Assembly (NCBI RefSeq): GCF_024623785.1
Contig: NZ_JANKBZ010000005.1
Location: forward strand, 372,001 to 436,000
From: Archangium lipolyticum
GTDB taxonomy: Bacteria; Myxococcota; Myxococcia; Myxococcales; Myxococcaceae
Reading direction: 5' to 3'
DNA length: 64,000 nt
Part shown: positions 8,290-62,640 of the stretch, one piece after another
Layout: each line of letters opens with the position of its first letter
Position numbering within the stretch: the stretch's first letter is position 1
Notes under the pieces: model-generated
What the model saw: only the letters and a program-made list of their open reading frames with translations
Told to the model about the DNA's origin: nothing
Database searches by the model: none
Position numbers and translations under genes: made by a program

Positions 8290-9027
8290 ATGTCTGGAAT
8301 CCAAGGGAAGGTCGTCGTCATCACCGGAGCGAGCAGTGGCATTGGCGAGGCGACTGCCCGGCTGCTCGCCAGACGCGGCGCTCATGTGGTGCTGGGCGCC
8401 AGGCGTACCGACAGGCTCGAGGCGCTCACGAAGGCCATCGTCGCCGAGGGAGGCTCGGCCCGGTACCGGCAGCTCGACGTGACCCGTCGAGAGGACATGG
8501 AGGCGTTCGTCGACTTCGCGCTTGGTTCGTTCGGCCGCGTGGACGTCATCATCAACAACGCGGGGGTCATGCCGCTGTCCATGCTGGAGGCCCTGAAGGT
8601 CGACGAATGGAACCGGATGATCGACGTGAACATCCGGGGCGTTCTGCATGGCATCGCCGCGGGCCTGCCGCTGATGAAGAAGCAGGGCGGTGGGCAGTTC
8701 ATCAACCTCTCGTCCATTGGCGGCCACTCGGTCGTCCCCACGGCGGCGGTGTACTGCGCGACCAAGTTCGCCGTCATGGCCATCTCCGAGGGGCTCCGCC
8801 AGGAGGCGGGTGACAACATCCGGGTGACGGTGATCTCCCCGGGGGTCACCGAGTCGGAGCTCGCCGACAGCATCTCGGATCCCGCGGCGCGGGAGGGGAT
8901 GAAGGCGTTCCGCCGGATCGCGATTCCGGCCGACGCCGTGGCCAAGGCCATCCTGTTCTCCATCGAGCAGCCCGCGGACGTCGATGTCAGCGAGATCATC
9001 GTGCGGCCGACCGCCAGCAAGCACTGA
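8290..9027 (+). CDS. SDR-family NAD(P)-dependent oxidoreductase
   Basis: 245 residues of classical SDR architecture: cofactor motif TGASSGIG near residues 13-20, NNAG near 90, the catalytic Ser strand INLSSIGG and the YCATKFA Tyr-x-x-x-Lys pair. It has no transmembrane segment, so it is cytosolic. The Arg pair after beta-2 (ARRTDR) suggests NADPH preference. It lies divergent from the AraC_N regulator at 7189-8106, a common pairing in which the regulator activates the reductase on exposure to a toxic carbonyl or similar compound. The exact substrate cannot be read from sequence. Confidence 0.88.
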   Translation: MSGIQGKVVVITGASSGIGEATARLLARRGAHVVLGARRTDRLEALTKAIVAEGGSARYRQLDVTRREDMEAFVDFALGSFGRVDVIINNAGVMPLSMLEALKVDEWNRMIDVNIRGVLHGIAAGLPLMKKQGGGQFINLSSIGGHSVVPTAAVYCATKFAVMAISEGLRQEAGDNIRVTVISPGVTESELADSISDPAAREGMKAFRRIAIPADAVAKAILFSIEQPADVDVSEIIVRPTASKH

Positions 9028-9064
9028 CGAATAAAACGCCTGGCTGCCTCGTCACGGGGCAGCC

Positions 9065-29026: not shown

Positions 29027-29507
29027 GCGTTCTCCTCGTGGCCTCCCCACCCGTGCGAGGCCTGACCCTCTCGTTTGCACTGGGTCAAGAGAGTTACACG
29101 GTGATGCTGGGTCGTCCTACTCCTTGGGTGTGACCACTACTGGAGAGACATTCGCTTTAAGGGGATGTGCGCAGGGAAAGCTTGTTTTAAGGATTGGGTG
29201 GTGCAGGCACAGCATCCGCGTACTTGGCCTGCTCTACTCAATCACAATACACAGCCTCTGAGGCATGCGTGCCTCCGTCACCTCGTTCTGAGGTGGCGAC
29301 TCGATGTTGACCCTGACCACCTTTCCAGAGAATTACCAAATTTGGTCGATGTCAAAATTTTAGGAAGCGCCATCAGTTGTTTTCGCGTCGCCGGAGTGAA
29401 CAGGCAGTTGAGTCTGGTGCTTGGTGCTCACGGGTGCACTTGCTACGGGGTTTTCCCTTCGGCTCTTTGTTGTTGATTGGCGGTTGAGGATAATACTCGG
29501 AGCCCCA
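29027..29507. other. gene-poor, lower-G+C spacer at the edge of the accessory patch
   Basis: No convincing gene is present. An open frame on the plus strand (29165-29476) has no ribosome-binding site or recognisable motif. Two short hairpins, GAGGCA/TGCCTC at 29260-29275 and CACCTC/GAGGTG at 29279-29295, sit in the middle without T-runs. G+C falls here from about 70% toward 50%, marking the boundary of the region beginning with the ATPase gene. Confidence 0.5.
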
Positions 29508-30809
29508 TCAAACAAGCAGCTTGAACCTCGAACCAAGAATCGCCAGTGGGCGTGGCGCATAAGTGGCCGCATTGCCTTGGGTTGATTTGGCAAGAAGTCC
29601 CTTTTCTTGCAAGGGTTGGAGATAGCCCTGGATGAAATTTGGCGCATTTTGAATGCTGTAATCCTTGTAGTCTTTGGGGCGTGCTGATCCTTTTTCGCAG
29701 ATCAACCGCAATACCCGTTTCTCTCTATCCGAGAGCTTCAATCGGCCGAGCTGCTGCTTGGTGGAGGTTTGAAGAATTTTTTCAGCCTGCGAGGGCGGGA
29801 TGGTGCGCAATTTTGGATCGTCAGCAATGGCGTCAGTTATAATCTCATCTGCAACCTTGAATACGTATCGGATCTCTCCAGACGATGCGTCAAATAGAAC
29901 CCGAAGTAGCTCTTCGCCAATAGGCGCAACGGCATCATCTCTAAGTCGATAAAAGTTTAAGCGGGCTTGTGTGGCGAGATTGAAATCATCCCACGAAAGT
30001 CCTTCCAAGGTCGTTTCCGTGCCTTTGATTCGCTGCGTAACTCTCGGGGCTTCTGCGTCAATCAAGTCATATAGGCCCCGCTGGCCAATCAGGACCCACC
30101 AGATGGACTTCATTGCAAAAAGAGTGTCGCGGTATTTGTTTAATAGTTTGATAACATCGTCTGAGTCGACCATTTCTATATTGTCGATGGCCATGACGAT
30201 GCCGCGGTAACTGCGTATTTGTCTTGCGGAATCCGCAAGGGCCGCCAACCGATCAACCAAAGAATCTGGAGAAAAGTCTTCCAGCTTCCTCTTAGAAACA
30301 GTGGAAGAGAATGTAGCATTGGCGCCGACCCCCATGACTGTCCCGCCGCCTCCCTTTGATGTGCTCTCGGATTGATTAAGCGAGTCCATCCAATCCGCTG
30401 TTTCGGCAACGATAGATGGGATGGGTTCTCCGAGGAGGCTACAACTCCATTTGACGGAGTTGATCGCAGAGCGGATGAATCTGCCTAGTAGATTGTGTTC
30501 CTCGATCTTTTCTTCGAGCTGCACAGTTTTGACGCAAGGCATGATCAATGGAGGATCAAATACAAGGTCAAAATCTCTTTTCCCCATCAAACAAAGATAC
30601 TGACAGACGTTCAAGAAGCTGGTCTTGCCAGTTCCGATGTTTCCGCCAATGACTGTTGTAGTCCCTGTGGCGGAATCCCACTTCCCCATCAAGCGCCGTA
30701 TCTCTGCGCCTCGACCAACAAAAAGATCCACACCCTCTCGTGAAATACTCAGTGGAGTTGCGAAATATGGGTTTTCGCGAAATCCAAGTACATTCCAAAG
30801 ACTTTGCAT
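29508..30809 (-). CDS. AAA-type P-loop ATPase with C-terminal winged-helix-like region (accessory)
   Basis: 433 residues. Walker A GGNIGTGKTS has Lys62; Walker B is VMAIDNIE (Asp209, Glu212). A sensor-like GQRGL and a SGEIRYVFKVADE sensor-2-like helix follow, and residues ~350-420 read as a winged helix (KLSDREKRVLRLICEKGSA, YLQPLQEKGLLAK). The order resembles Orc1/Cdc6-, TniB- and STAND-related DNA-associated ATPases. A Gly-rich insert (SKGGGGTVMGVGAN, 151-164) separates the subdomains. G+C is near 50% with many AT-ending codons, unlike all flanking genes, which indicates recent horizontal acquisition. It lies 36 nt downstream of a small same-strand gene. Specific function is unknown; defence, plasmid or element maintenance are possibilities. 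Confidence 0.75.
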   Translation of the reverse strand: MQSLWNVLGFRENPYFATPLSISREGVDLFVGRGAEIRRLMGKWDSATGTTTVIGGNIGTGKTSFLNVCQYLCLMGKRDFDLVFDPPLIMPCVKTVQLEEKIEEHNLLGRFIRSAINSVKWSCSLLGEPIPSIVAETADWMDSLNQSESTSKGGGGTVMGVGANATFSSTVSKRKLEDFSPDSLVDRLAALADSARQIRSYRGIVMAIDNIEMVDSDDVIKLLNKYRDTLFAMKSIWWVLIGQRGLYDLIDAEAPRVTQRIKGTETTLEGLSWDDFNLATQARLNFYRLRDDAVAPIGEELLRVLFDASSGEIRYVFKVADEIITDAIADDPKLRTIPPSQAEKILQTSTKQQLGRLKLSDREKRVLRLICEKGSARPKDYKDYSIQNAPNFIQGYLQPLQEKGLLAKSTQGNAATYAPRPLAILGSRFKLLV

Positions 30810-30845
30810 TTTTGCCTATGTTTTTTTTGATGGGTGTTTTAATTT

Positions 30846-31241
30846 TTATATTTTGGAGGTTTGACTCGACAAGAGAAGCGTTTCCAGAGTTTCCCATTGG
30901 GTTCCGCCTAGTGGATCTCCGTTGAGATCTGTAGTCGGAACTCTCTCCTTGGCGAACCGTTGAGTCATGGGGTCCTTCTTCTTGGGTTCGTCGTTACTTC
31001 CCATGAGGCCAACCAACTGTCCCGTGCTCAATGATGCGAACTCGATGATCCAGTCGTTGTTGAAGTTCAACAGCTTCCGGAATGGCTTGCTCCATAGGAT
31101 TTTGCTCCCCTCGCGGATGGCTGCATCTACAGGGCCATTAGTTGATGCTTCGCTCTGGTTGGGCAGAAGGCTCCTAGCCACAGTGGCTCTGCTCGCTCTT
31201 TCGACAATTCTGAGGGAGAAGGAGATGTGGCGCAAGGACAT
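30846..31241 (-). CDS. hypothetical protein preceding the accessory ATPase
   Basis: 131 residues from ATG 31241; the start is uncertain, and an ATG at 31268 is also in frame. The C-terminal half is hydrophilic and protein-like (FRKLLNFNNDWIIEFASLS, then GSNDEPKKKDPMTQRFAKER). There is no signal or membrane helix, and G+C is low like that of the ATPase. Its stop is 36 nt from the ATPase start, so the two probably share a transcript. A competing plus-strand frame covers part of the same DNA; I favour the minus strand because of the operon fit. No family is recognised. Confidence 0.45.
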   Translation of the reverse strand: MSLRHISFSLRIVERASRATVARSLLPNQSEASTNGPVDAAIREGSKILWSKPFRKLLNFNNDWIIEFASLSTGQLVGLMGSNDEPKKKDPMTQRFAKERVPTTDLNGDPLGGTQWETLETLLLSSQTSKI

Positions 31242-59143: not shown

Positions 59144-59177
59144 GCGGGCGGGTGAACGGTTCAGACCCTCACCCCAG

Positions 59178-59247
59178 CCCTCTCCCAGAGGGAGAGGGGG
59201 CATACACGGTGAGGAACCAGGTTGGACCCTCTCCCGGAGGGAGAGGG
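59178..59247. repeat. palindromic repeat element, third location
   Basis: Two copies of the same 9-bp stem, CCCTCTCCC-AGA-GGGAGAGGG (59178-59198) and CCCTCTCCC-GGA-GGGAGAGGG (59227-59247), separated by 28 nt and preceded by GACCCTCACCCCAGC, lie between the convergent zinc-ribbon and norB genes. The family recurs at 35427 and 42214. Confidence 0.8.
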
Positions 59248-59267
59248 AAGGGGGAGGAAAGGGGCGC

Positions 59268-61568
59268 TCAGCGACGGCGCAGGATCGCGTGGGCCGGGGC
59301 CGCCGCTCCGAGCCGCTCGGGCTCGGACTGCGGACTCGGCGCTTCCGCCTTCTCCAGCGACCAGCCCGTCTTCAGCCCCACGATGAACCACGCGAGCAGC
59401 AGCGCTCCCACCGCGAAGAGCACGTCCCCGGGCACCCTCAGCCACCGCAGCGTGTCCATCAGCGGCGTCTGCAGGAACTCCGCGCTTCGCGCCCACCACG
59501 TCCCCTGCTCGATCGCCGCCTTCGTCTGCAACACCCCGATCGGCAGCAGCGACAGCACCACCATCAGCACCAGCCCCGCGTTGATGCTCCAGAACGCCCA
59601 CGCCAGCGGCTTCGTCTTCCACTTCGCCTCCGGCTGCATCATCCGCAGCGAGAAGAGCATCAGCGCGATGCCCAGCATCCCGTACACCCCGAACAGCGCC
59701 GTGTGCCCATGCAGCGGCGTCAGGTTCAGGCCCTGCATGTAATACAGGGCGATCGGCGGGTTGATCAGGAAGCCGAACAGGCCCGCTCCCACCAGGTTCC
59801 AGAACGCCACCCCGATGAAGAACAGGATGGGCCAGCGGTATTGCTGCATCCATCCCTGCAACCGTGACAGCCGGATGTGGCTCCACACCTCGCGGCCCAC
59901 CAGCACCAGCGGTACCACCTCCAGCGCGCTGAACGTCGCCCCCAGCGCCATCGCCGCCGCCGGCGTCCCCGAGAAGTACAGGTGGTGGAACGTGCCGATG
60001 ATTCCGCCCGCCAGGAAGAGAATCGTCGTGAAGAGCACCGCCGGCACCGCCGTGCGCGCCGACAACACCCCCAGCCTCGTGAACAGGAACGTCATCACCA
60101 CCGTGGCGAAGACCTCGAAGAAGCCCTCCACCCACAGGTGCACCACCCACCAGCGCCAGTACTCCACCATCCCCATGTGGCTGCGCTGCCCGTACATCAG
60201 CCCCGCCCCGTAGAAGGCGGCGATCGCCATCGACGAGATGACGAAGAGCACCAGCAGTGGCCGGCCCTCGGTCGGCTTCTTCAGCGCCGGCAACACCGCC
60301 CGCGCCGTGAGGAACAGCCACACGAAGAGGCCCACGAAGAGGAAGATCTGCCAGAAGCGGCCCAGGTCCACGTACTCCCAACCCTGGTGGCCGAACCAGT
60401 ACCAGTAGTCTCCGCTGCCCATCCGCTGCTGCACCGACGCCCACTGTCCGAACAGCGCCCCCACCACGATGATGAGCAGGCACACGAAGAGGAAGTTCAC
60501 CCCCGCCCGCTGGTACTTCGGCTCCACTCCGCTCACCGCCGGGCCCACGAAGAGGCCCGTGGCCAGCCAGGCCGTGGCGATCCAGAAGATGCCCAGCTGC
60601 GTGTGCCAGCTGCGCGTCACCGCGTACGGCAGGTACTTCGCCAGAGGCACGCCGTAGAAGCCTGCTCCCTCCACGCCGAAGTGCGCCGTCACCCCGCCCA
60701 GCCCCACCTGCGCCAGGAAGAGCGCCACCACCACCAGGAAGTACTTGCCCGTGGCCCTCTGGCTCGGCGTGAGCTGGAGGCCGGAGAATGGATCCTTCTC
60801 GGGCGGCGCCACCTCCTCGTCCTCCTTCTTGCCGCTCAGGTACCAGAGGAGCGCGCCCACACCGGCCAGCAGCAGCACCACGGACGCCATGCTCCACAGC
60901 GTCACGCCTGCGGCGGGCTGGTTGCCCACCAGCGGCTCGTGCGGCCAGTTCTGCGTATAGGTGACGGTGTCGCCGGGCCGGTTCGTCGAGGCCACCCAAC
61001 TCGTCCACCAGAAGAAGGCCCCCAGGTCCTTCAGCTTCTCCGGGTTCGTCAGGGCGCCCTCGGGGATGGCGTAGGCCGCGCGGCCCTTGGAGAAGACGTC
61101 CGCGTAGTGCGCGGCGTTGGCCCGCATCGCCTCGGCGCGCACCGGTGACAGCGTCACCGTGCCCGTCCGGTCGTCATACGTGTTGGTGCGCATCTGCGCG
61201 GTGAGCCGGGTGCGCAGCGCCGCCTGCCGCTCGGCCGGAGCCTCCGCATAGGAGGTGAGGCCCTCCTCGCGCGCCCAGGTGTCCAGCACGAAGATGGCCT
61301 CGCGGTGCAGCCAGTCCGCGCTCCAGTCCGGCGCCACGTACGCCCCGTGGCCCCACACCGAGCCCACCTGCTGCCCTCCAATGGACTGCCACACGTTCTG
61401 CCCGCGCATGATGGACTCGCCCGTGAGCAGCACCGTGCCCTCGGGCGTCATCACCTTCTCGGGGATGGGTGGGAGCGTGCGTGAGATGCGGACTCCCTGG
61501 CCCCCCAGGACCAGGAAGGAGACGAGGACGACGGCGCCAAGGCCGAACCAGAGTTTTCGGTGTCGCAT
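59268..61568 (-). CDS. norB: quinol-dependent nitric oxide reductase (single-subunit qNor)
   Basis: 766 residues from ATG 61568. An N-terminal extracytoplasmic domain of about 200 residues (GESIMRGQNVWQSIGGQQVG, SVWGHGAYVAPDWSADWLH) replaces the cytochrome c subunit and identifies the qNor type. About 14 membrane helices follow with heme/non-heme-iron His ligands in WHTQLGIFWIA, FHHLYFSGTP and HGHTALFGVYG. It reduces 2 NO to N2O using quinol in the inner membrane. No norC, nirK or nosZ gene is near, so the role is probably NO detoxification. An NsrR-like operator lies 130 nt upstream. Confidence 0.93.
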   Translation of the reverse strand: MRHRKLWFGLGAVVLVSFLVLGGQGVRISRTLPPIPEKVMTPEGTVLLTGESIMRGQNVWQSIGGQQVGSVWGHGAYVAPDWSADWLHREAIFVLDTWAREEGLTSYAEAPAERQAALRTRLTAQMRTNTYDDRTGTVTLSPVRAEAMRANAAHYADVFSKGRAAYAIPEGALTNPEKLKDLGAFFWWTSWVASTNRPGDTVTYTQNWPHEPLVGNQPAAGVTLWSMASVVLLLAGVGALLWYLSGKKEDEEVAPPEKDPFSGLQLTPSQRATGKYFLVVVALFLAQVGLGGVTAHFGVEGAGFYGVPLAKYLPYAVTRSWHTQLGIFWIATAWLATGLFVGPAVSGVEPKYQRAGVNFLFVCLLIIVVGALFGQWASVQQRMGSGDYWYWFGHQGWEYVDLGRFWQIFLFVGLFVWLFLTARAVLPALKKPTEGRPLLVLFVISSMAIAAFYGAGLMYGQRSHMGMVEYWRWWVVHLWVEGFFEVFATVVMTFLFTRLGVLSARTAVPAVLFTTILFLAGGIIGTFHHLYFSGTPAAAMALGATFSALEVVPLVLVGREVWSHIRLSRLQGWMQQYRWPILFFIGVAFWNLVGAGLFGFLINPPIALYYMQGLNLTPLHGHTALFGVYGMLGIALMLFSLRMMQPEAKWKTKPLAWAFWSINAGLVLMVVLSLLPIGVLQTKAAIEQGTWWARSAEFLQTPLMDTLRWLRVPGDVLFAVGALLLAWFIVGLKTGWSLEKAEAPSPQSEPERLGAAAPAHAILRRR

Positions 61569-61697
61569 GACCGGGCTTCCCGAGAGGAGGGTGTCTGTAG
61601 GTTGGCGACTCCCAGAGCAAACCCCGTTCCAGGCCTCCTCCCTCGGGACCGCACACGCCGTGTGCGCAAGCGGTGCGTCCGGTGGCCCCGGTTCGCG

Positions 61698-61726
61698 CAA
61701 ATCGTGCATTTTGAATGCATGTTTTG
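61698..61726. promoter_or_regulatory. NsrR-like operator between norB and the DMT transporter gene
   Basis: A 29-nt imperfect palindrome centred on 61712 with a perfect core TGCATTTTGAATGCA (61705-61719) and matching outer CAAA arms. The pattern agrees with the NsrR/Rrf2-type site (ATGCATTTnAAATGCAT-like). The location upstream of a NO reductase makes NsrR control likely. Confidence 0.78.
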
Positions 61727-61785
61727 GGGGAGGGCAGGCGGGCGGACGGAGCCCCAAGGGGGAGGGAGGTGATAGGGGAGGTCCG

Positions 61786-62640
61786 GTGAGCTCCGCCGCG
61801 CTGGTGCTGGTGCTGTCGTCCGCGTTCTTCCACGCGCTGTGGAACGCGCTCCTCAAGCGTCACGAGGACCCGGAGTCCGCCGTGGTGGGCGTCATCGCCG
61901 TCACCGTGGCGTGCGGAGGGTTGTGGGCGCTCGGCCTGGAGGGCACGGCGTTCCCCACGTCACGGGCCCTGCTCTGGACGCTGGTGGCCGGCGTGCTGGA
62001 GAGCGGCTATCTGGTCACGCTCGCGCGCTCGCTGCGCCGGGCGCCCCTGGGGCTCGCGTACACGGTGGCCCGCGGTGGCGCGCTGCTGCTCGTCTGGCCC
62101 GTGTCCGTCCTGTGGCTGGGCGAGCGGCTCACCCCGTGGACCGTGGCGGGCGCCACCGCCGTGGCCCTGGGCATGGCGGGGATGAACCTCGAGCGGCCCC
62201 GGGGCGCGGTGGGCGAGGGCGTGCTCTGGGCCCTCGCGAGCGCCGCGTGCATCGCCGGGTTCAATCTCAGCTACAAGCGCGCCCTGGGCGAGGGGGTGCA
62301 GCCCCCGGCCCTGTTCACCCTGTCGCTCGGCGTGGCCCTTCCCCTGCTCGTCCTCCAGCGCCGCCGCGAGGAGGCCGGCTGGGGCGTGTTGTACCGCAAG
62401 GTGATGACCCGGCCCCTGTTGCTCGTGGCCGCCGGGGTGCTCTGCACGCTGTCCTTCTCGCTGCTGCTCATGGCGCTCGTGCGCAGTGGGGCGGGGGCCG
62501 TGCTCACGTTGCGCAATACGTCCATCGCGTTCGCCCTGGGGCTCGGCGCGCTCCAGGGTGAGCGGTTGGGACGGCGGCGGCTCGCCGGGGCGGGCCTGGT
62601 GATGCTCGGGGCCGTGCTGCTCGGCTGGCCCCGGGAGTGA
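61786..62640 (+). CDS. DMT-superfamily (EamA-type) transporter
   Basis: 284 residues from GTG 61786 with about ten hydrophobic helices arranged as two EamA repeats (FFHALWNALLKR opens the first; GEGVLWALASAACIAGFNLS opens the second). The family exports amino acids, metabolites or drugs; substrate cannot be predicted. The start lies 60 nt from the NsrR-like palindrome, so the transporter may share NO-dependent control with norB. It ends 11 nt before the convergent bcp gene. Confidence 0.85.
   Translation: MSSAALVLVLSSAFFHALWNALLKRHEDPESAVVGVIAVTVACGGLWALGLEGTAFPTSRALLWTLVAGVLESGYLVTLARSLRRAPLGLAYTVARGGALLLVWPVSVLWLGERLTPWTVAGATAVALGMAGMNLERPRGAVGEGVLWALASAACIAGFNLSYKRALGEGVQPPALFTLSLGVALPLLVLQRRREEAGWGVLYRKVMTRPLLLVAAGVLCTLSFSLLLMALVRSGAGAVLTLRNTSIAFALGLGALQGERLGRRRLAGAGLVMLGAVLLGWPRE

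Follow-up and report, generated by a model that had tools for sequence, protein, structure and literature searches.

A predicted NsrR-type operator upstream of a sigma54-type norB promoter in Archangium lipolyticum, with the divergent EamA gene as a likely bystander

The analysed stretch of Archangium lipolyticum DNA (64,000 nt, hereafter the window) carries a palindrome that had been noticed from the letters alone and attributed to the NO-sensing repressor NsrR, with norB and, possibly, an EamA-family exporter gene as its targets. The open reading frames and Pfam bore out the position of the palindrome between the divergent norB and EamA genes. The features of the locus are the following:

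59268..61568, minus strand: norB, quinol-type nitric oxide reductase with a fused cytochrome-c-like domain (Pfam PF22085, E 1e-68; PF00115, COX1, E 2e-56)
61616..61631, minus strand: predicted sigma54-type -24/-12 promoter of norB, TGGAACGGGGTTTGCT (TGGAACN5TTGCT in 12/12 orthologues)
61665..61677, minus strand: second conserved dyad, CGCA-N5-TGC, candidate activator site (12/12 norB orthologues)
61696..61709, minus strand: right half-site plus TTTGCG (ATGCAN3TTTGCG), invariant in 12/12 norB orthologues
61701..61723, minus strand: 23-bp NsrR-type box centred on 61712, AACATGCATTCAAAATGCACGAT when read in norB orientation, with the palindrome at 61705-61719 as its core
61786..62640, plus strand: EamA/DMT-family transporter gene with a GTG start (PF00892, E 1e-16), judged a bystander

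The core of the palindrome, TGCATTTTGAATGCA (window 61705-61719), is indeed perfect, with two 6-nt arms flanking TTG, and 11 of the 14 opposed pairs are complementary over the 29-nt span 61698-61726. A genome scan (12.6 Mb, 75 contigs), which the sequence-only reading had proposed, returned the exact TGCATTN3AATGCA a single time, at the window site. The looser TGCATN5ATGCA was found at four places (vs. one for the reversed control), namely the window site, two sites before glbN, and one site within an open frame (C8:25457) that we judged to be due to chance. At window position 29643, a match with two mismatches lies within a stretch (~29100-31100) that is visibly AT-richer by eye. Considering that TGCATN5ATGCA occurs 2-5 times per Archangium genome, the window site could itself be a functionless chance palindrome. 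However, an aligned site precedes norB in all 12 orthologues, and the combination of half-box and sigma54-type promoter described below was found only at norB. These results confirmed that the palindrome is more than chance, and we give the chance explanation very little credence.

With regard to the regulator, the lack of any NsrR homologue would have spoken against an NsrR-type site, and an NsrR-like gene was found. Specifically, four Rrf2 proteins of the genome are above the Pfam cut-off, and one of them (C4:137956-138411; PF02082, E 6.4e-36) is encoded by the last gene of a three-gene run, glbN-reductase-nsrR. Its best PDB match was Streptomyces NsrR (5n07, E 3.7e-17), and its three cluster cysteines line up with those of 5n07. 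It scored 118.8 bits with the NCBIfam NsrR model vs. 60.4, 33.7, and 20.8 bits for the other Rrf2 proteins, which were scored as matched stretches and not as whole proteins. Because 118.8 bits is below the NsrR equivalog cut-off (182 bits), we refer to the protein as NsrR-like and not as a certified equivalog; the RirA model scored slightly higher (126.6 bits), also below its own cut-off (193). What decides for NsrR is the neighbouring genes and the DNA motif, not the profile. The nsrR gene occurs in 53 of the 96 family genomes. In our genome, cydAB (cydA by Pfam, cydB by eye; L022:1933-4300) is located ~2.7 kb from the glbN-reductase-nsrR operon, and the locus scan revealed no box outside the glbN promoter.

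We read 41 of the 53 nsrR loci with wide flanks (our own plus 40 others), and glbN was found in 40 of them; in the remaining locus (L225), the contig ends before glbN. In this operon, glbN encodes a truncated haemoglobin (PF01152), while the reductase has Fer2, FAD- and NAD-binding domains. A perfect GCAT-N5-ATGC core was present in 37/40 glbN operons, including our own, where two boxes lie 25 bp apart and have arms that are complementary over 9 and 7 nt. In 33/40 operons, the core followed a TTGAC by at most 45 bp (mostly 22-23 bp), a position that appears to be as expected if the repressor covers a sigma70 promoter. A position weight matrix (PWM) was built from 42 of the 44 glbN sites, leaving out two overlapping, out-of-register sites, and these operators were collected without norB. 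Its consensus, AAGATGCATTTAAAATGCATCTT, agrees with the published NsrR motif gATGyAT-(N5)-ATrCATc, as given in the section of Rodionov et al. 2005 used here (PMC1274295). When compared with this motif, the window site agrees in core and spacing (CATGCAT..ATGCACG), but keeps the weakly conserved outer g/c in neither half, and one inner position of its right half is changed by pairing from A to G. The window site scored 29.3 bits, which is inside the range of the glbN training sites (25.0-46.3 bits); the best of 2000 shuffles reached 4.7 bits. The earlier attribution to an NsrR-type site therefore gains support from the NsrR-like gene, from the matching operators of its own operon, and from a score within their range.

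Relatives of norB were detected in 18 of the 96 family genomes, and 12 of them were orthologues (at least 79% identity), six in the genus of the window and six in one other, Myxococcus-type genus. Since they are confined to two genera, these 12 genes are not independent. One further norB (G040), incomplete because its contig ends there, was left out of scoring. Among named records, the norB of the window was closest to those of Archangium violaceum (92%) and A. lansinium (90%), in a search that may have lacked records very close to our genome. The best window of the glbN-derived PWM fell at the same aligned place in all 12 orthologues, 145-172 bp before the norB start. In 11 of them, the score was above all 2000 shuffles, which were drawn from the norB upstream region of the window and kept only its base composition; the weakest box (G004, 0.2 bits) was matched or exceeded by 0.25% of shuffles. 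Scores ranged from 0.2 to 44.0 bits, and four of the 12 boxes reached the training range. The highest-scoring site, AAGATGCATTAAAAATGCATCTT (G079, 44.0 bits), matches the glbN operators in core and arm spacing. The symmetry was not strictly kept: half of the orthologues (6/12) had a perfect GCAT-N5-ATGC core and the others a degenerate one. The right half ATGCA together with TTTGCG was the sole invariant part; the left arm was poorly kept within the genus of the window. The boxes of norB start with AAC in 9/12 cases, and those of glbN mostly with AAG.

All 12 genomes with a norB orthologue also have nsrR. No PWM score above zero was obtained for the norB relatives of five genomes lacking nsrR (G001, G031, G032, G033, and G087) or for two paralogues, although two of these boxless relatives were only mildly negative (G032, -2.3 bits, reached by 0.6% of shuffles; G033, -8.2 bits, 4%). 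The co-occurrence of nsrR and box is confounded by orthology, given that the boxless norB relatives are only 37-63% identical. Our genome itself contains a second norB paralogue (G000:C13:176805-179036; 59% identical), and neither a box nor a sigma54 motif was found in the 300 bp upstream of it. We also note that repeats resembling CCCTCTCCC..GGGAGAGGG lie between genes 3' of norB (window 59163-59255) and again 5' of glbN (L022 ~8990-9045); they probably represent a dispersed extragenic palindrome.

Sigma54 promoters share a TGG-N10-GC core with TTGC at -12. The element TGGAACN5TTGCT, which starts 53-69 bp before the norB start codon in the 12 orthologues, is a strong match to this consensus and the candidate promoter of norB; the sequence-only reading had not mentioned it. 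The centre of the box is located 93-94 bp upstream of the GC of the -12 element in nine norB genes and 105 bp upstream in three, two spacings that differ by about one helical turn. Between box and promoter, the second dyad CGCA-N5-TGC starts 44-46 bp after the start of the box in 12/12 orthologues. Its longer form, TGCGCAANCGGTGCGTNC, has an exact match in our genome only at norB, and matches with one mismatch were at about control level, so we rejected this dyad as a repeated regulon signal. Perfect box core and sigma54-type promoter at the norB spacing occurred together in six of the 96 family genomes, and ATGCAN3TTTGCG with the promoter in 12 of 195 Myxococcota genomes; both were found once per genome and always at norB, and the controls gave zero. 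As the latter pattern was derived from the same 12 genes, its value is in its absence elsewhere: none of the 195 Myxococcota genomes had it at a gene other than norB.

It is possible that the box is instead the upstream activating site of a sigma54 enhancer-binding protein, perhaps NorR-like and NO-sensing, and that its likeness to NsrR sites is incidental or ancestral. This would be consistent with a box kept at enhancer distance (93-94 or 105 bp) from the -12 element of norB and with an invariant part that consists of the half-box plus TTTGCG and not of the full palindrome. In four of the six Myxococcus-type norB genomes, we also found an opposite-facing sigma54-like sequence, TGGCACN5TCGCA, with 42, 43, 53, and 75 bp between it and the centre of the box; it was not found in the other two. 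The four values differ from one another by nearly whole helical turns, but do not suffice to prove phasing. A GAF-AAA-Fis protein with NorR as its best NCBIfam model is encoded in our genome (G000:C8:274012-275610), on a different contig from norB, and scored 391 bits over nearly the whole model, below the cut-off of 476 bits. Nonetheless, a protein as widespread as this NorR-like one (70/96 genomes) is not tied to norB by being present, and we rejected it as a linked norB activator. In addition, the core, the arm spacing, and the G079 site match glbN operators that were gathered without norB, and a different dyad, CGCA-N5-TGC, is available as an activator site. On balance, we consider an activating site, the chief rival reading, rather unlikely.

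The EamA gene was evaluated using its orthologues in 41 of the 96 family genomes, for all of which upstream DNA was examined (only ~210 bp in L185). Divergent adjacency to norB was observed in five of the 41 loci, all in the genus of the window (5/6 Archangium genomes). This adjacency, together with the 23-bp box ending 62 bp before the EamA start codon, could suggest that in the lineage of the window the exporter is a true NsrR target along with norB, repressed through the shared site and induced by NO. However, the core was found upstream of none of the 36 EamA orthologues without an adjacent norB (best score 4.4 bits, L181), and the earlier proposal that the exporter belongs to the NsrR regulon was not borne out. 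In the closest relative (G006), norB (98%) and EamA (93%) are separated by 3.9 kb that include a short-chain dehydrogenase gene and a gene judged by eye to encode an AraC-like regulator; there, the box, which is degenerate (18.6 bits), has remained at norB, and the EamA upstream region scored -15.8. Conversely, the box has decayed in G004 (0.2 bits) and G002 (5.2 bits) despite an adjacent EamA. The flank on the EamA side is 9% invariant over 55 bp within the genus, in an alignment that includes the different DNA of G006 at this place. No TGGMACN5TTGCW was detected on the gene strand in the examined DNA upstream of EamA in any of the 41 loci, and a sigma70 consensus scan of 61500-61850 found no match, which is weak evidence in GC-rich DNA. 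EamA thus appears to be an accidental neighbour of the norB box, and we view its role as an NsrR target as quite improbable.

The surroundings of EamA vary among the relatives. In 30 of the 41 loci, EamA has a convergent TPR gene as its neighbour; in the 10 loci from the genus of the window and those nearest to it, the 1.5 kb flank did not include this gene, but in our genome and G006 (L027, L242) it is found a few kb beyond EamA. In two Myxococcus-type genomes (G053 and G068), norB is divergent from a cytochrome c-nosZ cluster, and EamA follows beyond it, at 11-12 kb and on the strand that it has in the window; the intervening DNA also holds a few other genes. A third such genome, G063, is without nosZ and has EamA ~5 kb from norB. 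Overall, NosZ was present in 5/6 norB-bearing Myxococcus-type genomes vs. 0/6 of the genus of the window. The simplest history would be that EamA adjoins norB because the separating region, including the nos cluster of the Myxococcus-type relatives, is absent in Archangium. A Sec-dependent nosZ (TIGR04246), cytochrome c, and nos-like genes were seen near norB in L243 (10748-13199), G056, G067, G068, and G079; the identities of nosZ, cytochrome c, and the short-chain dehydrogenase of G006 were verified, and nosD, nosL, and nosFY were named by eye from translations. Shortly 5' of EamA in five loci of Myxococcus-type genomes (L173, L177, L181, L184, and L187), we observed a long inverted repeat, CTGTTCGGAAATGTCGGG ... 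CCCGACATTTCCGAACAG, which varies slightly among them and may be a mobile element, an operator, or an RNA hairpin.

Taken together, we regard it as probable that the palindrome is an NsrR operator that serves norB by anti-activation at a sigma54 promoter and that EamA is not its target. What the sequences provide for this reading are the box, the regulator gene, the glbN operators, the sigma54-type promoter, their conservation with norB, and the absence of the box at EamA; from these, we infer NsrR binding at norB, the response to NO, action by anti-activation, and how EamA came to lie beside norB. In the proposed mechanism, the three-cysteine NsrR-like repressor would bind the norB box when NO is absent, and NO would react with its Fe-S cluster so that NsrR leaves the box. 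Transcription of norB would start from the sigma54-type promoter ~94 bp downstream of the box centre. Given this promoter type and distance, NsrR would most likely act as an anti-activator and not by covering the promoter, as it apparently does at glbN. Specifically, bound NsrR would occlude or disturb the enhancer of a sigma54 activator, and its release would free the enhancer.

As a more tentative possibility, NsrR may not block promoters here but be a partner or anti-activator at the sigma54 enhancer, with its box helically phased to the norB promoter and, in the Myxococcus-type relatives, also to a divergent sigma54-like promoter of the cytochrome c-nosZ cluster. If so, a single NO-sensitive box would act through the enhancer to switch NO as well as N2O reduction. 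The myxobacterial NsrR regulon predicted from our comparison comprises glbN-reductase-nsrR and norB, and possibly the nos cluster in some Myxococcus-type genomes. The weak lead of an exporter in the nitrosative-stress regulon gives way to a testable regulatory layout.

The predicted regulon resembles that of beta- and gamma-proteobacteria, as described in the parts of Rodionov et al. 2005 (PMC1274295) drawn on here, in its motif and in its norB and glbN-reductase targets. In that study, norB was predicted as an NsrR target in Neisseria, Chromobacterium, Polaromonas, Ralstonia solanacearum, and two Burkholderia species, the glbN-reductase operon was the sole target in Legionella, and narK-like and tehB-like transporters were already among the regulon members. 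The myxobacterial arrangement differs in that nsrR is located inside the glbN-reductase operon and that the norB box lies ~94 bp upstream of a sigma54-type promoter; the parts consulted here assign sigma54 promoters to NorR sites and not to NsrR sites (PMC1274295). What is unexpected in the predicted layout is that an NsrR-type box is coupled to a sigma54-type promoter at norB. NsrR derepression and sigma54 activation, two proteobacterial NO-responsive schemes, would meet at one promoter. In an open-access literature search that was not exhaustive, no title or abstract described a myxobacterial norB/NsrR/sigma54 layout.

With NorR/sigma54 control of norVW, norAB, and hmp, as covered by the sections used of PMC1274295 and PMC4601167, the locus shares an NO reductase gene, a sigma54-type promoter, upstream dyads, and a NorR-like GAF-AAA-Fis protein in the genome. 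It differs in its DNA sites, which are tandem GT-N7-AC for NorR but GCAT-N5-ATGC and CGCA-N5-TGC for the conserved dyads at norB, and in its NorR-like gene, which is on another contig (C8) and below the curated cut-off. Streptomyces coelicolor NsrR (PMC4432287, in part; 5n07) is likewise a three-cysteine Rrf2 protein, which has an 11-1-11 bp inverted-repeat operator and targets its own gene as well as globin genes that detoxify NO, and the sites predicted here are similar in operator type, own gene, and globin targets. Its sites are described there as significantly different from those of E. coli and B. subtilis (PMC4432287), whereas the boxes found here follow the proteobacterial consensus of Rodionov et al. 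(PMC1274295). Finally, Myxococcus xanthus RisR (PMC9973013, in part) is a myxobacterial Rrf2-family regulator that is phylogenetically nearer to NsrR than to IscR; the regions bound by RisR have a GAC-N7-GTC core and it controls isc/suf, whereas the gene for the protein considered here belongs to a globin operon and the boxes predicted for this protein have the form GCAT-N5-ATGC.
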